Positions 6,163-58,878 of a stretch of DNA of 64,000 bases are shown here, one piece after another. The notes below the pieces were generated by a model. It searched no databases, was not told the origin of the DNA, and saw nothing but the letters and a program-made list of their open reading frames with translations. Numbering within the stretch: the stretch's first letter is position 1; the number at the start of each line of letters is the position of its first letter. The translations under genes were made by a program, and so were the position numbers. Source of the DNA: Pirellulales bacterium (GTDB taxonomy: Bacteria; Planctomycetota; Planctomycetia; Pirellulales; JAICIG01); contig DATLUO010000039.1 of assembly GCA_035533075.1 (NCBI GenBank), positions 1 through 64,000 of the forward strand, read 5' to 3'.

Positions 6163-7872
6163 CTAGCCACCGCCCCAAGGGGGAAGCTTGATGGGTTCGA
6201 TGAAAGCAGGCGCGCCGACGGACTTCATGTGCCGTCGATAAAGCTTGCCGCCGCCGGTGGCGAACAGCATATCGAACTGCTTGCCACCGAAGCAGACGCT
6301 GGTCGCGCCGCCGGCGGGCAACGGCAGAATTCCGCGCGAACGGCCGTTGCGATCGAAAATCTGTACGCCCATGTGCGTGGCGACATAGGGACGCCCGTCG
6401 CGGTCCATGCACATATTGCCGGCGCCGCTGTCGACGGCCCAGTCCGGCACGTGCATCCAGTAAAATCGCTGTTTCAATTCGACCGTGCCGTCTTGCTTCA
6501 CGCGGTAACTGTAACCCCAATGAGTGCGGCTTTCCATCACGGCCAACCACAGGCCGTCCGGCGACAAAGCGATGCCCGTCGGATTCTTCAAGCCTTCATC
6601 CAGAAGCGTCTTCGTGCCGTCGGATTTGATCAGCCACACGTTGCCGGCCGCCCCATCCGTGGCGTAGAGGTCGCCCCGATGCGTGGCGGTGAGGCAAGTC
6701 GCCTCGATGTCGTCGACGCACACCGCTTGACCGTCGGCCTGGAAAGCGAAGGCTTTGTCCGCGGGAACGTTCGCGGCGTCAGCGATCTTGCCGTCAAGAT
6801 CGAGCTTGCGGGTCCGCCCGGCCGCAATGTCGTGAAAGAACACCTGGCCCTGTGGATTGGCGGCGAGATGGCTGCAGGCGTCGCAGGCCTCGCTGACGAC
6901 CTCCCAAGTCGAGTTGGGGTCGAGCGTCGCCTTGAGCACGACGTTCTGGGTCTTGGCCGTTTGCGGCGCCAAGGGTTTGTGCCAATCTTTCCAGAGAAAA
7001 CGCATGGCGTCGGGAAAGATCGCCGTCGCGTGCTTGCCGCTGTGCGGGCCGGTTCCCCAAACATGCTGGTGCTCATAGCCGGAAAACTCCAAGGCCCGGT
7101 CGAGCGTCATGTTGCCCATCCACCAGTCGCCGACTTCGGGGCCGCCCATCCACTGGTCGTTTTCGCCGTCCTGCTGGAAGACGCGAATCGGCTTCGGCTC
7201 GGTTTTGCGCACGAGCACGGGATAGCGGTCGCCGCCGCGCATGCCCACGAACGTGCCGATGGCCGAAAACACGCGTCGAAACTGGTCCGGCCGCTCCCAG
7301 GCGAGCGTGAAGGCCGCGATGCCGCCGGTGCTGCCGCCGCCCGTGCAGCGGTCGTTGGGATCGGCCGACAGCCTGATCGGCAGCCCGTCCGGCGTCTGCC
7401 GTTTTTCGACTTCGGGAAAAACTTCATCGACGATCAAGCGGGCCAACGAGTCGTTCAGACCGTCGAACTCGAAGCTGCGATCGAAACGCGGATTCTCCTG
7501 CTTGTTCCGCGACGCAACCGTGCCCGACGAAACGCCGATGGCAATCGTCACGGGCATCTCGCCTTTGTGGATCAGATTGTCGAACACCACCGGAACGCCG
7601 AAGCCCAGCGCATCGAGCCCCACGTACACGCAGGCGGTCTTGTCGCCTTGGTACTGTGCGGGCACATAGACGGTGATATTGCGGCTGGTGCCGGGAAAAA
7701 CCTTCGATTCTTCGAACCGGAACGAAAACGTCTTTCCCTTCGGCACGCCCTGTTGAGGCTTTGAATCGGCTCCCGGTTCGTAGTCGTCGATGCCCGTCTT
7801 CGCCGGCTGCGCGTGGACACGGGCGGCGGTGCAAACGACGAGACAGAGTAGCAGTGTCTGGAAGGCTCTCAT
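6163..7872 (-). CDS. Secreted esterase (alpha/beta hydrolase) fused to an SMP-30/gluconolactonase-like propeller
   Basis: The 569-residue protein starts with a signal peptide (MRAFQTLLLCLVVCTAARVHA), so it acts outside the cytoplasmic membrane. Residues of about 45-300 resemble enterochelin esterase/esterase D hydrolases: RNITVYVPAQY at the start, a nucleophile-elbow-like CTGGGSTGGIAAF, and a His in WGTGPHSGKHA. From about residue 320 a second half shows repeated strands with GIALSPDG, GNMCMDRDGRPYVATHMG and GATSVCFGG. This pattern is typical of SMP-30/gluconolactonase beta-propellers. The combination suggests a sugar- or polyphenol-ester-degrading enzyme, but no substrate can be named. An upstream in-frame extension to 8145 was rejected because it reads through a gene relic before the signal peptide. 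Confidence 0.8.
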   Translation of the reverse strand: MRAFQTLLLCLVVCTAARVHAQPAKTGIDDYEPGADSKPQQGVPKGKTFSFRFEESKVFPGTSRNITVYVPAQYQGDKTACVYVGLDALGFGVPVVFDNLIHKGEMPVTIAIGVSSGTVASRNKQENPRFDRSFEFDGLNDSLARLIVDEVFPEVEKRQTPDGLPIRLSADPNDRCTGGGSTGGIAAFTLAWERPDQFRRVFSAIGTFVGMRGGDRYPVLVRKTEPKPIRVFQQDGENDQWMGGPEVGDWWMGNMTLDRALEFSGYEHQHVWGTGPHSGKHATAIFPDAMRFLWKDWHKPLAPQTAKTQNVVLKATLDPNSTWEVVSEACDACSHLAANPQGQVFFHDIAAGRTRKLDLDGKIADAANVPADKAFAFQADGQAVCVDDIEATCLTATHRGDLYATDGAAGNVWLIKSDGTKTLLDEGLKNPTGIALSPDGLWLAVMESRTHWGYSYRVKQDGTVELKQRFYWMHVPDWAVDSGAGNMCMDRDGRPYVATHMGVQIFDRNGRSRGILPLPAGGATSVCFGGKQFDMLFATGGGKLYRRHMKSVGAPAFIEPIKLPPWGGG

Positions 7873-7920
7873 TTCTGGCGGGACCCGATGTAGATTAATG
7901 TGGTTCCGTCGGTTGATCGA

Positions 7921-8022
7921 ATCGGCTTCGTCCGGCCCGAGTGCGCGTGTGGCGCCGGTGCTGAAAAGCCATTCTACTTTGATCTGTTCCAGAACCAAAA
8001 CCCGTGCGCCAGTGAAGACGTG
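7921..8022 (-). pseudogene. Relic copy of the 3' end of the HEAT-protein gene
   Basis: On the minus strand this stretch encodes KVEWLFSTGATRALGPDEA, matching KVEWFSSTGAARALGPEEA near the C-terminus of the HEAT protein (9014-10582). The flanking HVFTGAR also resembles HYVATAR there. The DNA is similar too: 7915-7997 against 9050-9132, roughly four of five bases by eye in the better half. It has no start codon of its own. Both copies have the same orientation and flank the two genes at 8190-8968. Confidence 0.65.
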
Positions 8023-8189
8023 CGGTTCAGGTCCATCCGCCATCTCACGGCTCCGCCGCCGGCGCCGAAAAAGCGCCGCATCGGCCCGGTTGTGCGAATC
8101 GAACTGCTGCGGATCTGCCCGCGCCACGCGGGACCATGCGGGCAAGACTGATTGACCCGGTACGCGATCCGTGGGAGACTAACGTTGGC

Positions 8190-8465
8190 ATGAAATACGT
8201 CATCGAGATTCCCGGCGAGATCGAGCAGGCCCTGGAAAAGCGGGCGTCCGACACGGGCAGTGATGTGCCGCACCTGATCGAAATGGCTGTCGTCTCGTTC
8301 GTCCGCAACGAACTGCGCGCTTCGCCAGCCGGCCGCCGGCCTGATCCACCACTCGAAACGCTCGAATTCGTTCCGCCCTGTGACCTGCCTCGGACCGCCC
8401 CGCGCTTCGTTCCCATCCAGCAAACTTCGCACCGGACCCCCGACCCGACCGCGGACATGGCATGA
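8190..8465 (+). CDS. Small ribbon-helix-helix-like protein
   Basis: The 91-residue protein begins MKYVIEIPGEIEQALEKRA, a beta strand followed by helices as in CopG/Arc-type ribbon-helix-helix DNA-binding proteins and many antitoxins. The tail after residue 45 is proline-rich and probably disordered. Its stop codon overlaps the start of the next gene (ATGA at 8462-8465), so the two are very likely co-translated. An upstream in-frame ATG at 8136 would add 18 residues without a better ribosome site. It could be an antitoxin or a regulator of its partner; the RHH reading is from pattern only. Confidence 0.6.
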   Translation: MKYVIEIPGEIEQALEKRASDTGSDVPHLIEMAVVSFVRNELRASPAGRRPDPPLETLEFVPPCDLPRTAPRFVPIQQTSHRTPDPTADMA

Positions 8466-8968
8466 TCTACGAGGCTCGTCCACGCGAAGCGCCGCTTGGC
8501 CAAGGCGACATTCTCGAAGTGTGTCCGCTGGTGTATTGGACCGCCGAGAGGGATCAAGGCGGCGAACTGCAATTACGCAGCGCATCATCCAATGAACGCG
8601 TGATCGTGCTCACGCAGGCGTGTGACCTGGCGAACTCCAAAACCTCTAAGGTGCAGATCGCCGTCGTTCATGCCACCGTCAGGCTCGTGCGCGAAGGCAT
8701 TCTCAAAGCGCAGACGATCCGCGATCAGGTGCGGCGGCACCTCGTATTTGGGTGGTACTTTCTGCCAGCCGCGGAGCGTAACCCAGAATCGATCGTCGAC
8801 CTGCACGACATCCATACTGTTCCGCGCGAGCTTCTCGAAGAACAAATCCGACAGGGTCACCGAAACTCGGCGATTTCGACACCGTTCCGCGAACATCTCG
8901 CCCAGCATTTGGCGACGACGTACTCTCGCATTGCCCTGCCCGAACCCTACGAAACGCTACCGGAATAG
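8462..8968 (+). CDS. Conserved protein of unknown function, coupled to the RHH-like gene
   Basis: The 168-residue protein, MIYEARPREAPLGQGDILEVC at its start, has the motif VIVLTQACDLANSKTSKVQIA near residue 48 and ends LATTYSRIALPEPYETLPE. I recall planctomycete hypothetical proteins with the same frame (L-T-Q-x-C-D-L-A-N, then a C-terminal SRIGLPEPY). This suggests a conserved family, but I know no function. No signal peptide or membrane segment is seen. It overlaps the upstream gene by 4 nt (ATGA), a layout typical of toxin-antitoxin or regulator-effector pairs. The Cys-Asp pair in the motif could be catalytic or metal-binding; this is speculation. Confidence 0.7.
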   Translation: MIYEARPREAPLGQGDILEVCPLVYWTAERDQGGELQLRSASSNERVIVLTQACDLANSKTSKVQIAVVHATVRLVREGILKAQTIRDQVRRHLVFGWYFLPAAERNPESIVDLHDIHTVPRELLEEQIRQGHRNSAISTPFREHLAQHLATTYSRIALPEPYETLPE

Positions 8969-9013
8969 ATCGCAGCTGGCGGGACTCCTTCCAGGCGCGC
9001 CGAAAATCGCTCG

Positions 9014-10582
9014 TCACAAGCACCCGCGCAACAGCTTGCGGCCCTTGACGATCAAATAGGCTTCTTCCGGCCCGAGCGCGCGTGCCGCGCCGGTGCTGGA
9101 AAACCACTCGACCTTAAGGCCATCGTCCACCAGTATGCCCGGCTGACCTTGCCGCCGTGCCGTGGCCACGTAATGAATCTGGCCGAAGAAGGCGCCCGCC
9201 TTGACGAGCCGCGGATCGTCGTAGTCCATGCCGACAAGCTCGCCGCGGCGGCGCTGCCAGGCAGCCAAATCCGCGGCGGTCAAGGCGTCGGCCGCCTGTT
9301 CGCGAATCTCGTCGTGCTCGGTGATCCAGCCCGCATAGGCGGCGTAGATGTCTTGCGGCGGCAGGTCGCCCAGGTCGGCCCGAAAAGCGTGGACCACCGG
9401 ACCCGCGATGCCGATGCCCTGCAGCGTCCGCTCCGCCAGGCGATACTCGTAGCGGAAGAGGTAGCAATCGACTTCGTGTTCATAGCCCGGCCAGTGTTGA
9501 CGGCAGGCGTCGACCAGCTCCATGCGTTGCGGCGGAGCGCCGAAATAGGTGGGCAGTGCCAGCCTCACGGCCAGCTCGGCCTCGGCCCGTGCTTCGGGCG
9601 AGCGGTATTGCTGCGGCACCTGCTCGAGCTGCTCGATCTCTTCCAGCGTCGCCAGTGCCCGCAACCGCACCACCGGCTCGGCCGCCATATCGACCAGCAC
9701 CTCGGTGCCGCGCTCGTCGCCCAGCCTGGCCAACGCCGACGCCGCCTCGGTCCGCACCCGCCGGTGCGAGAGCTCGAGCGTCTGGTGCAACTTGCCGGCC
9801 ACACGCGGATCGCCGATCATCGCCAAGGCGTTCATAAGCGCCACGACCAGCCCCGTGCTGTCGCTGACGATCTGATTCAACTCGGCGGGCGAACGGGCAA
9901 ACTCGTCGGGCCGCTCTTCCAGCCGCGCCAGCCGATTGACCATGCCGCCCAAAAGCCCGCTCAGACGCTCAACCCGGCCGGCCGCCGGGTGCCGGCTTAC
10001 GCGGCCGCAGCGCGTCAGGTAATTGGCCAGATCGAGCACCACGGTGGCCAGCATCGGGCCGTGCATGGCGTCGAGCAGACGCGGAAAGAGCGCGTCGGCC
10101 GGATAGGTTTTGTGCTGGAACAACGGCACGAAGGCCAGCAAGACGTCGTTCGTCTCCGACGGCGGGTCGCTGACAACCAGCCCGGCGAACGTCGCCAGCG
10201 CGGGCCGCTGTCCGCTGCCGGCAAGCAGTCGCAAAAGCTGCGGCCTGGCGCGGCTGTCGGCGCCCAAATAGCGGTAAATCTCGGCGGCGCACTTCACGGC
10301 GACCGCGTCGAGCGACTCCGACAGCGCTTTGGCCGGCAAGCCACACCACAGCTTTTCGAGAACGGGCGACCAGAAGCGGTCGGCCGCGAGCGGTTCTGAG
10401 AGCGTGGTCGCCAGGTCATCTCGTCTGGTCAGATCGGCGAGCAAACCGAGCGTCGCCGGCAGATCGGCCGCACTGACGCGCGCAGCGGCCAGCGAGTCGC
10501 AGTAAGCCGACCATCGAGCATCGCTCTGGCTGGCGGCCGCGAACACGTCTGGCAGCAGCAAATCGGGCAGAGAATCAGACAT
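9014..10582 (-). CDS. HEAT-repeat protein of unknown function
   Basis: The 522-residue protein lacks a signal peptide and is almost entirely helical. The middle shows HEAT-like repeats, clearest at LMNALAMIGDPRVAGKLHQTL, VRTEAASALARLGDERGTEVL and VRLRALATLEEIEQ. The C-terminal 100 residues form a separate part with the conserved-looking block HYVATARRQGQPG...KVEWFSSTGAARALGPEEA. That block is duplicated as a relic at 7921-8022. HEAT arrays usually mediate protein-protein contacts, and no enzyme motif is visible. The gene is convergent with the RHH/unknown pair; its stop lies 45 nt from theirs. Confidence 0.75.
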   Translation of the reverse strand: MSDSLPDLLLPDVFAAASQSDARWSAYCDSLAAARVSAADLPATLGLLADLTRRDDLATTLSEPLAADRFWSPVLEKLWCGLPAKALSESLDAVAVKCAAEIYRYLGADSRARPQLLRLLAGSGQRPALATFAGLVVSDPPSETNDVLLAFVPLFQHKTYPADALFPRLLDAMHGPMLATVVLDLANYLTRCGRVSRHPAAGRVERLSGLLGGMVNRLARLEERPDEFARSPAELNQIVSDSTGLVVALMNALAMIGDPRVAGKLHQTLELSHRRVRTEAASALARLGDERGTEVLVDMAAEPVVRLRALATLEEIEQLEQVPQQYRSPEARAEAELAVRLALPTYFGAPPQRMELVDACRQHWPGYEHEVDCYLFRYEYRLAERTLQGIGIAGPVVHAFRADLGDLPPQDIYAAYAGWITEHDEIREQAADALTAADLAAWQRRRGELVGMDYDDPRLVKAGAFFGQIHYVATARRQGQPGILVDDGLKVEWFSSTGAARALGPEEAYLIVKGRKLLRGCL

Positions 10583-18813: not shown

Positions 18814-18854
18814 GGGGAAGGTCTTGGAATTGAGGGACGGCGCAAAAAACATCG

Positions 18855-19029
18855 TAGGGTGGGACCAGCGAGCTTGCGAGCGCCGGCCCACCATGTTCAA
18901 GGCGATAGGTGTTAGGACATGATCCTCACACCGCGCCTAATGCCCAACGCCTGAAGCCTGACGCCTGACGCCTGATGACGCCTGACGATGGTGGGCCGGC
19001 GCTCGCAAGCTCGCTGGTCCCACCCTACT
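18855..19029. repeat. Inverted pair of the 39-bp TAGGGTGGGACCAGCGAGC repeat, with GCCTGACGCCTGA spacer
   Basis: One copy (18855-18893) and its inverted copy (18989-19029) enclose a spacer built of CGCCTGA-type units. The same pair recurs at 44380-44531 and 58755-58846. It lies between the coiled-coil protein gene and the FHA gene. Confidence 0.9.
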
Positions 19030-28026: not shown

Positions 28027-28794
<768 letters not shown>

Positions 28795-28843
28795 TAAGGG
28801 AGGGTTAATTTCAGCAGGCGACTGCCCCGGAAGCTTGTTATAA

Positions 28844-30189: not shown

Positions 30190-30255
30190 CTTCGGCGAAG
30201 GCATGGACATGCCCGACCGCGACAGCCAAGATCGCCCGCATGCGGCGTAGTAAGG
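30190..30255 (+). repeat. 66-bp direct repeat, copy 2
   Basis: Duplicate of the lptB 3' end, 64 of 66 bases identical to 28734-28799; the differences lie at positions 13 and 40 of the repeat. It is not attached to an lptB coding region, so it is the remnant side of the duplication. Confidence 0.95.
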
Positions 30256-44321: not shown

Positions 44322-44379
44322 GCCCTTGACGGAACGCCGCGCAGCGCGCTGACTAAGGGTTCTTGTTTGGTCAGCAAGG

Positions 44380-44531
44380 TAGGGTGGGACCAGCGAGCTT
44401 GCGAGCGCCGGCCCACCATTATTAGGCGTCGGGCGTCAGGCGACAGGCATCAGGTTGTTGGTCCTGACGCCTGAAACCTGACGCCTCAAATCGGTGGGCC
44501 GGCGCTCGCAAGCTCGCTGGTCCCACCCTAC
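44380..44531. repeat. Inverted pair of TAGGGTGGGACCAGCGAGC repeat, with CGTCAGGC spacer
   Basis: Copy at 44380-44418 and inverted copy at 44493-44531 enclose CGTCGGGCGTCAGGCGACAG and CCTGACGCCTGAAACC units. It fills most of the gap between the aminotransferase and cbiG genes; no riboswitch-like structure for cobalamin was recognised here. Confidence 0.9.
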
Positions 44532-44564
44532 CAGGAACGAGAAGATCCGCAGCCGGGAGCAACC

Positions 44565-49297: not shown

Positions 49298-49567
49298 ATG
49301 ATCCGACGAGAACCGAGCCGCCGCAAGCGGGACAAACGAGCGGTCAAGAAACCCGGACAAAAGAGATCCGAACAGACGATTAGCGAAACGCTGGCTGAAC
49401 TCGACCGGGTGGAAACCGCTTCACCCAAGGCCAAGCCGCTGATTGATTTGTTCCGAGATTGGCTTACCGACGAGTCGGGTTACGACGAAGAAACCTGGCC
49501 CAAGTTGAAGAATGCCTTGAATCGCGAACGCGCACGCGTCGGCGCTCGGAGGCTTTTCGATGCCTGA
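49298..49567 (+). CDS. Small basic protein upstream of a PIN toxin (putative antitoxin)
   Basis: The 89-residue protein has a very basic N-terminus (REPSRRKRDKRAVKKPGQKR). A helical part follows (ISETLAELDRVETASPKAK, LIDLFRDWLTDE) and then an Arg-rich end. Its stop overlaps the PIN gene start by 8 nt (49560-49567), the usual layout for an antitoxin and its toxin. It matches no antitoxin DNA-binding fold that I recognise; the N-terminal basic region could bind DNA or RNA. Confidence 0.65.
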   Translation: MIRREPSRRKRDKRAVKKPGQKRSEQTISETLAELDRVETASPKAKPLIDLFRDWLTDESGYDEETWPKLKNALNRERARVGARRLFDA

Positions 49568-50000: not shown

Positions 50001-50794
50001 CCCTCGCCCAGTGGAAGAGAGTTAGGGAGTACTCTGCTGATAGGCTACGGGCCTTTTGCCAAGCGCTTGAGCGTTCGGATATTGACTCAATGCGGCGATT
50101 CGCGGCCGAGGTGCCCGACCTCTTTCGCAAGCTTCATGAGCAGCAGTACCCGGACTGGGCCGTGTGCAATGCCGCTCAAGAATCTTCGCCAGAAGCAATT
50201 CGAACGTTGCTCGAGCTTGGAGCCGACATTAACGAGCAAGATTCCAACGGCGACACCGGCCTGTGCTGGGCCGTTATGGAAGGACGGCACGATGCCGCGA
50301 AGGTGCTTCTAGAAGGCGAGGCCGATCCAAATCTCGGTTGTCCGATTTTTCACGTGGCTTGCCAGGACGTGGAAGACCGCATCGGCGTCGCTGCCCTTTT
50401 ATTGGACCACGGAGCCGATATCAACCAGCCGTTTCTTGTCGAAGGGCTGCCGCCGCGAAATGTCTTAAGCGAGGCGATATCGCGAGGTCATGAGGAATTG
50501 GTCGCGTTTCTTAAATCGCGCGGCGCCAAGCTGCCTGAAGGGCCGGCTGGCCGCGGCGAGCCTATAGAGCCAGATTTTGAGCCTGGGGATTATACCACCG
50601 AGATCGTGCGTCATTTCCGAAAACATTATGGCGACCCCCTGCCTGAAGTCGTTTACGAGATTGTCCCATCTTCCGACAGCCCCATCGAGGTGCATTACAT
50701 TCCGCTGACCGCCAAGGGCGATTCCTCGGTCCTCTTCACCAGCGGTTTGGGCCCGGAAAAGGGACCCGGAAAAGGGGATAAGTCCCATTATTAA
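49997..50794 (+). CDS. Ankyrin-repeat protein with truncated SUFU-like C-terminus
   Basis: A GTG at 49997 overlaps the PIN stop (GTGA), so this third gene is co-translated. The 265-residue product has three to four ankyrin-like repeats: EAIRTLLELGADINEQDSNG, LCWAVMEGRHDAAKVLL, VAALLLDHGADINQPF, VLSEAISRGHEELVAFLKSRGAKL. It then has VRHFRKHYGDPLPEVVYEIV and IEVHYIPLTAKGDSSVLFTS, resembling the first half of a SUFU (suppressor of fused) domain. The frame then enters a palindromic repeat cluster (EKGPGKGDKSHY) and stops, so most of that domain is lost. SUFU and ankyrin modules are common in immunity proteins, which fits a toxin-linked context. Confidence 0.75.
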   Translation: MTLAQWKRVREYSADRLRAFCQALERSDIDSMRRFAAEVPDLFRKLHEQQYPDWAVCNAAQESSPEAIRTLLELGADINEQDSNGDTGLCWAVMEGRHDAAKVLLEGEADPNLGCPIFHVACQDVEDRIGVAALLLDHGADINQPFLVEGLPPRNVLSEAISRGHEELVAFLKSRGAKLPEGPAGRGEPIEPDFEPGDYTTEIVRHFRKHYGDPLPEVVYEIVPSSDSPIEVHYIPLTAKGDSSVLFTSGLGPEKGPGKGDKSHY

Positions 50795-51112
50795 AGACCC
50801 GGAAAAGGGGATAAGCCCCATTATTAAATGGGACTTATCCCCTTTTCCGTGCCTTATTAAATGGGACTTATCCCCTTTTCCGGGCCTCCCCTTTTCCGGG
50901 CCCAAGTAAGTCAGAGACGTCATGGCGGCCATTGGCGAGCACCCACCAAAGCGCTAGGCCGCCTTGTTCGCCCCCAGGAATCGGCCCCGGAAAAGGGGAC
51001 CCCGGAAAAGACCCCGGAAAAGGGGATAAGTCCCATTATTAAATGGGACTTATCCCCTTTTCCGGGCCATTAAATGGGACTTATCCCCTTTTCCGGGCTC
51101 TTTTCCGGGCTC
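50750..51112. repeat. Cluster of GGAAAAGGGGATAAGTCCCA palindromic repeats
   Basis: At least seven full or partial copies of a unit reading CCCGGAAAAGGGGATAAGTC, then CCATTATTAAATGG, then the inverse GACTTATCCCCTTTTCCGGG. They run in both orientations, with a ~85-nt unique spacer (50902-50985) in the middle. It directly abuts the interrupted SUFU-like gene on the left and the HigA-like remnant on the right. Confidence 0.95.
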
Positions 51113-58720: not shown

Positions 58721-58878
58721 TGTCTTAATAGTGAGTTGGCCGTAGCAATAGCCGTAGGGTGGGACCAGCGAGCTTGCGAGCGCCGGCCCACCACGACTGC
58801 CGAAAATGGTGGGCCGGCGCTCGCAAGCTCGCTGGTCCCACCCTACACCTCGTGACCAACTCACTGTTAAGAGACTAC
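58721..58878. repeat. Long inverted repeat with two TAGGGTGGGACCAGCGAGC copies
   Basis: The inner arms are the 39-bp repeat (58755-58793 and 58807-58846). The outer arms GTCTTAATAGTGAGTTGG (58723-58740) and CCAACTCACTGTTAAGAGAC (58857-58876) are also complementary. The ~155-bp element resembles a MITE-like or foldback unit, of which the other pairs carry only the inner arms. Confidence 0.85.

Follow-up and report, generated by a model that had tools for sequence, protein, structure and literature searches.

Some integrative elements use the 3' ends of genes as attachment sites. Restriction-modification genes can insert in such a way that the target is duplicated over a long and variable stretch of about 100 bp, and this type of insertion goes back to Nobusato et al. 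(2000) and Furuta et al. (2010), as summarised in PMC3874152 and PMC3031569. Literature searches on toxin-antitoxin genes together with target duplication turned up mainly the restriction-modification review, which does not prove that an extension to toxin-antitoxin genes is unpublished. Long target duplication is known for restriction-modification genes, and the cases considered here lie around toxin-antitoxin-like cassettes in planctomycetes.

The DNA analyzed in this study (hereafter, the window) is a stretch of 64,000 nucleotides from a Pirellulales bacterium. A gene for a HEAT-repeat protein of 522 amino acids lies on its minus strand (9014-10582; Pfam HEAT_2, E 5.6e-8), and on the same strand lies a gene with esterase and SGL domains (6163-7872; Pfam SGL, E 3.3e-16; Esterase, E 1.2e-7), the start of which was read from the sequence. 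A 66-bp segment of the HEAT gene (9050-9115, minus strand) recurs in the same orientation at 7915-7980; this second copy, a relic, lies 42 bp upstream of where the esterase gene starts. The two copies are identical at 55 of 66 positions (83.3%) without gaps; at this 17% divergence neither boundary is readable precisely, and extension of the alignment past 66 bp was not significant on either side (p 0.69 and 0.90). The alignment scored 44, and the best of 1000 codon shuffles reached 25.5 (z = 15.7). A blastn search of the whole 8.54-Mb genome located the segment at these two sites only (E 5.8e-13), and the translated relic matched itself and the HEAT tail alone (protein-level E 4e-5). The original prediction had placed the relic at 7921-8022 and its source at 9056-9175. 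The pairwise alignment and significance check that it proposed bear out a diverged copy and its intact source, but both spans given were too long.

The prediction had also regarded the copied piece as the terminus of the gene, and this does not hold. The repeat ends 36 nt before the gene end, and the tail VKGRKLL (KGRKLL) is present in the intact HEAT gene only. The HEAT gene was matched in 28 of 58 relatives, and its orthologues have the tail pattern KGR+LL in common. Thus, the tail encoded at 9014-9049 is native to the gene, and the relic, which is also headless, is without it.

The origin of the relic can be considered from the comparison with the orthologue in G001, the only same-family genome. 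This orthologue differs at 25 of the 66 sites where both copies agree. Each copy is therefore much nearer to the other than to the same-family orthologue, meaning that the duplication was local and is younger than the split from G001. Seven of the differences between the copies could be polarized with this orthologue; five changes fell to the relic and two to the gene. We looked among the relatives for a paralogue still standing upstream of the esterase and found none: their esterase homologues have no HEAT tail upstream, and their HEAT homologues have no esterase downstream. Since the two genes are not linked in the relatives and the copies are closest to each other, there is no support for the relic being a lost ancestral paralogue. 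The HEAT-esterase junction is kept in none of the relatives, G001 has no syntenic neighbours of the HEAT gene, and no empty site was found at this locus.

The copies are separated by 1069 bp (7981-9049). The left portion of this stretch (7981-8189) is without an assigned gene, and the native HEAT tail occupies the right end (9014-9049). An Rfam scan of 7600-9400 gave no match. As predicted, the coordinates place a pair of plus-strand genes (8190-8968) between both copies. The first gene (8190-8465, ATG at 8190) encodes 91 amino acids, and its start and its PPCDLPR...PDP motif are conserved in homologues. An AlphaFold model of moderate confidence gives it a two-helix N-terminus compatible with a ribbon-helix-helix (RHH) and a disordered C-terminus, and it has a weak Arc-like PHROG match (E 0.023). 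The second gene (8462-8968) encodes 168 amino acids and overlaps the first by 4 bp. Its AlphaFold model, built with 23 homologues, has a mean pLDDT of 92.5 and a MazF/Kid/CcdB fold: the leading VIA-align matches are to MazF (Z 11.8, rmsd 2.4 A, 105 residues aligned), all 50 of the 50 VIA-align matches listed are MazF-, Kid- or CcdB-type toxins, and Foldseek agrees on MazF (E 8.5e-4). At the level of sequence, the second gene matched neither a Pfam nor a PADLOC family, no NCBIfam match was credible, and a match to MazF/PemK or CcdB was absent from Pfam (searched with the 23 homologues), NCBIfam, PADLOC and the PDB sequences.

Homologues of the second gene were found at 42 further loci, nearly all of them labelled Planctomycetota, and none were found in the plasmid and phage collections. 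The genes upstream of these homologues have varied N-termini (FitA-like RHH, HTH_37, weakly ParD-like and unassigned types), and a C-terminal motif of the type SAPFDLPR...LPDP recurs in many of them. On comparison of the family members, swapped N-termini with a recurring C-terminal motif have the look of modular type II antitoxins, the N-termini being apparently interchangeable among planctomycete homologues. The original prediction had called the pair an RHH-like gene and an unknown gene. The first gene does seem RHH-like from its model, and the pair as a whole looks like a type II toxin-antitoxin module. Judging from the predicted structure, the putative toxin belongs to a divergent MazF-fold family that is found almost only in Planctomycetota and has no Pfam family. 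We regard the pair as a candidate new toxin-antitoxin family with interchangeable antitoxins. The family loci include, besides the window, L043 (7052-7561), L044 (7782-8300), L045 (12253-12756) and L228-L269. G001 contains a toxin remnant (L040, G001:C35, 3914-4346), which is frameshifted, without antitoxin, and 81% identical to the toxin of the window; repeats flanking this degraded copy were not convincing.

The window contains a second repeat of this kind, at the 3' end of lptB. The intact copy (28734-28799, plus strand) and the orphan copy (30190-30255, plus strand) are 97% identical over 66 bp. They enclose about 1.4 kb at lower GC (0.58 vs 0.64); the ORFs in this span score low, and its opposite strand has a match to DUF4303. 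The two arrangements had been said to have equal topology. The lptB repeat is real, but its cargo is less clearly a gene pair than that at HEAT, and the HEAT locus needs an added deletion, as described below. The window also contains intergenic dispersed inverted repeats around GTAGGGTGGGACCAGCGAGCTTGCGAGCGCCGGCCCACC (18854-19028, 44378-44532 and 58754-58846), several copies of which are nearly identical, and a cluster of palindromic CCGGAAAAGGGGATAAGTCCCATT repeats at 50749-51112.

The survey of the genome for small gene pairs lying between local repeats, suggested together with the prediction, covered 1.44 Mb of the host genome. Among repeats that were local only, 0.2-5 kb apart and outside single genes, 31 were direct and none was inverted. 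Several of the 31 were tandem paralogues or repeat-rich genes, and C1 and some further local repeats were set aside as tandem paralogues. Ten non-paralogue cases enclosed less than 1.6 kb with small ORFs only; the cargo included HTH and PIN genes (C50), a DUF4258 gene (C60), a UPF0175-like antitoxin (C29) and vapBC pairs (C56). In the distant control genome G015, the repeat cases inspected were all paralogue pairs.

We then compared toxin-antitoxin loci with control spans, and in both tests the loci were picked independently of their repeats. Repeats spanned 5 of 30 PIN-toxin loci of the host genome and 103 of 5423 control spans (p 2.7e-4), and they spanned 4 of 41 homologues of the window's toxin in other genomes and 7 of the 660 control spans taken from those loci (p 0.0025); these p-values are only approximate because neighbouring control spans overlap and the PIN match L166 was not inspected by eye. 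That is, toxin-antitoxin loci were spanned by repeats about 10-fold more often (10-17%) than control positions (1-2%). The four homologous loci belong to four other planctomycete genomes, and each is flanked by its own local repeat: 127 bp at 87% identity (L246), 304 bp at 91% (L248), 92 bp at 86% (L261) and 210 bp at 81% (L268). The three other copies of the toxin in the host genome (C39:92081, C35:19796 and C231:12277) had no convincing flanking repeat, so the association between cassette and repeat is not universal.

The repeats are 66 bp long at HEAT and lptB, and from about 54 to 680 bp at the other loci. The duplicated pieces had been expected to be 3' ends; 5' ends and gene junctions were found among them as well. 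Apart from one locus whose ends overlap, the insert ends had no common motif over 15 junction pairs; this speaks against a transposon and against an att core common to the loci. No transposase, integrase or other recombinase was recognised among the cargo ORFs.

At G000:C18, two small genes form a cassette between two other genes, flanked by 87-bp copies (49307-49393 and 50340-50426). In the same-family genome G001 these other genes are direct neighbours, with the junction in single copy; this is the empty site. Each of the flanking genes is complete, the upstream one through the first copy and the downstream one through the second. In the part belonging to the upstream gene the copies have two differences, one of which abolishes its stop codon in the second copy. 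By the standard usually applied in such comparisons, C18 qualifies as an insertion with an 87-bp target duplication.

L261, from an Isosphaeraceae metagenome assembly, has the same order as the HEAT locus: the 3' end of a dehydrogenase-like gene, an antitoxin-toxin pair, and a 92-bp relic. Compared with an orthologue (84% protein identity), the relic has eight changes, six of them at first codon positions, and the gene has two, at third positions. The orthologue shows that the copies are sisters, so that a diverged donor of the gene end is not needed. We had considered a donor-derived copy and rejected it, both for this reason and because the differences pooled over the compared loci (43 synonymous to 41 non-synonymous) are about those of single-copy decay, for which our own estimate is about 40% synonymous.

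Taken comprehensively, we consider it probable that a cassette was inserted at HEAT with a long target duplication, and that the far copy subsequently decayed and was partly deleted. A type II toxin-antitoxin-like cassette would have entered beside the HEAT gene, and the target stretch, including part of the HEAT 3' region, would have been copied, so that the new DNA came to lie between two copies. Selection would have preserved the copy that belongs to the gene, whereas the far copy, being useless, would have gathered the substitutions. A strict target duplication puts the native tail beyond the far copy; at HEAT the KGRKLL tail is found towards the cassette and is missing from the relic, and therefore an extra deletion must be assumed. 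This deletion would have removed the distal part of the far copy, on the side of 7914, and left the 66-bp relic. Erosion of this kind can happen, as seen at C29, where the matching segments are nearer each other in one copy than in the other. The machinery may have been a staggered break followed by fill-in, or some other non-homologous insertion equivalent to it. In our reading, the HEAT case represents an older instance of an insertion with long target duplication. The original prediction is partly supported by these results. Its view that a mechanism rather than chance lies behind such repeats agrees with the 31 direct repeats against no inverted one, with the excess in both span tests, and with the empty site at C18; its account of the copied piece was revised as described above.

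An explanation that we think unlikely, but worth weighing, is that the relic is a small local copy of a HEAT fragment placed in the intergenic region, with the cassette between the copies by coincidence. Such an event accounts for a tailless internal piece without an extra deletion, and local direct repeats that enclose no cassette do exist in the host genome. A coincidence of this kind has to face the difference in frequency, in that repeats span only 1-2% of control positions, and the similar arrangement of four other toxin cassettes of the same family.

It is also conceivable, though we find it improbable, that a circular molecule recombined at the gene end, either site-specifically with a recombinase acting in trans or homologously through a gene end that it carried. 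The topology of the product is identical. Moreover, at G000:C56 (L132; 11329-13635) three copies of one DNA methyltransferase 3' end are interleaved with two different vapBC-like cassettes, as though a single site had taken two insertions in turn, and this apparent double use keeps recombination through the repeat in play. Against such a molecule, the repeats vary in both sequence and length (54 to about 680 bp), the insert ends have no motif, no recombinase was recognised in the cassettes, and the copies are sisters with respect to the orthologue at both L261 and HEAT, making a diverged donor unnecessary.

A tandem duplication of the HEAT end together with the cassette, in which the second cassette was later lost, seems very improbable. 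Tandem duplications do occur in the host genome, and the C1 and C29 loci may be examples; no trace of a second pair was seen left of the relic, however, and the single-copy empty site at C18 would be left unexplained. Chance similarity, or descent from the C-terminus of an unrelated older paralogue, is hardly credible and is already refuted by the shuffle and E statistics (z 15.7, E 6e-13), by the esterase homologues of relatives, which lack an upstream HEAT tail, and by the copies being nearer to each other than to the orthologue.

These results suggest that such gene pairs arrive in genomes through duplication of part of the target, and they bear on the spread of small toxin-antitoxin modules when no mobile element is visible. 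If arrival regularly duplicates the target, the scar could be used to find recent arrivals, to order them in time by the decay of the useless copy, and to guide the search for the machinery. The duplication also explains why the host gene stays unbroken when a cassette arrives within an operon or at the end of a gene, as at C18. It is rather doubtful, though conceivable, that planctomycetes have an active, so far undescribed route by which toxin-antitoxin cassettes are inserted, duplicating about 50 to several hundred bp and perhaps driven by a dedicated enzyme acting in trans, and that repeated use of one site builds arrays such as C56.

Finally, the locus can be compared with the known systems. 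The pair resembles MazEF, Kid-Kis and CcdAB in being an overlapping two-gene operon with a toxin of MazF/CcdB fold and a small, putatively DNA-binding antitoxin with a predicted disordered C-terminus. In contrast to those systems, the toxin of the window is longer (168 amino acids) and matches no Pfam model, and the N-terminus of the antitoxin appears swapped among family members (RHH-like, FitA-like RHH, HTH, ParD-like and others) while the C-terminal motif is mostly kept. As with integrative elements at gene 3' ends, the gene end is kept on one side and a second copy lies on the other; unlike with those elements, no integrase and no common core were recognised, and 5' ends and gene junctions are duplicated too. 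The insertions of restriction-modification genes likewise concern small selfish units without a transposase, flanked by long and variable direct repeats of the target and recognised by comparison with a related genome. They differ in that the cargo here is toxin-antitoxin-like, the hosts are Planctomycetota, the HEAT case is without an empty-site comparison, and one genome contains several cases of varying divergence.
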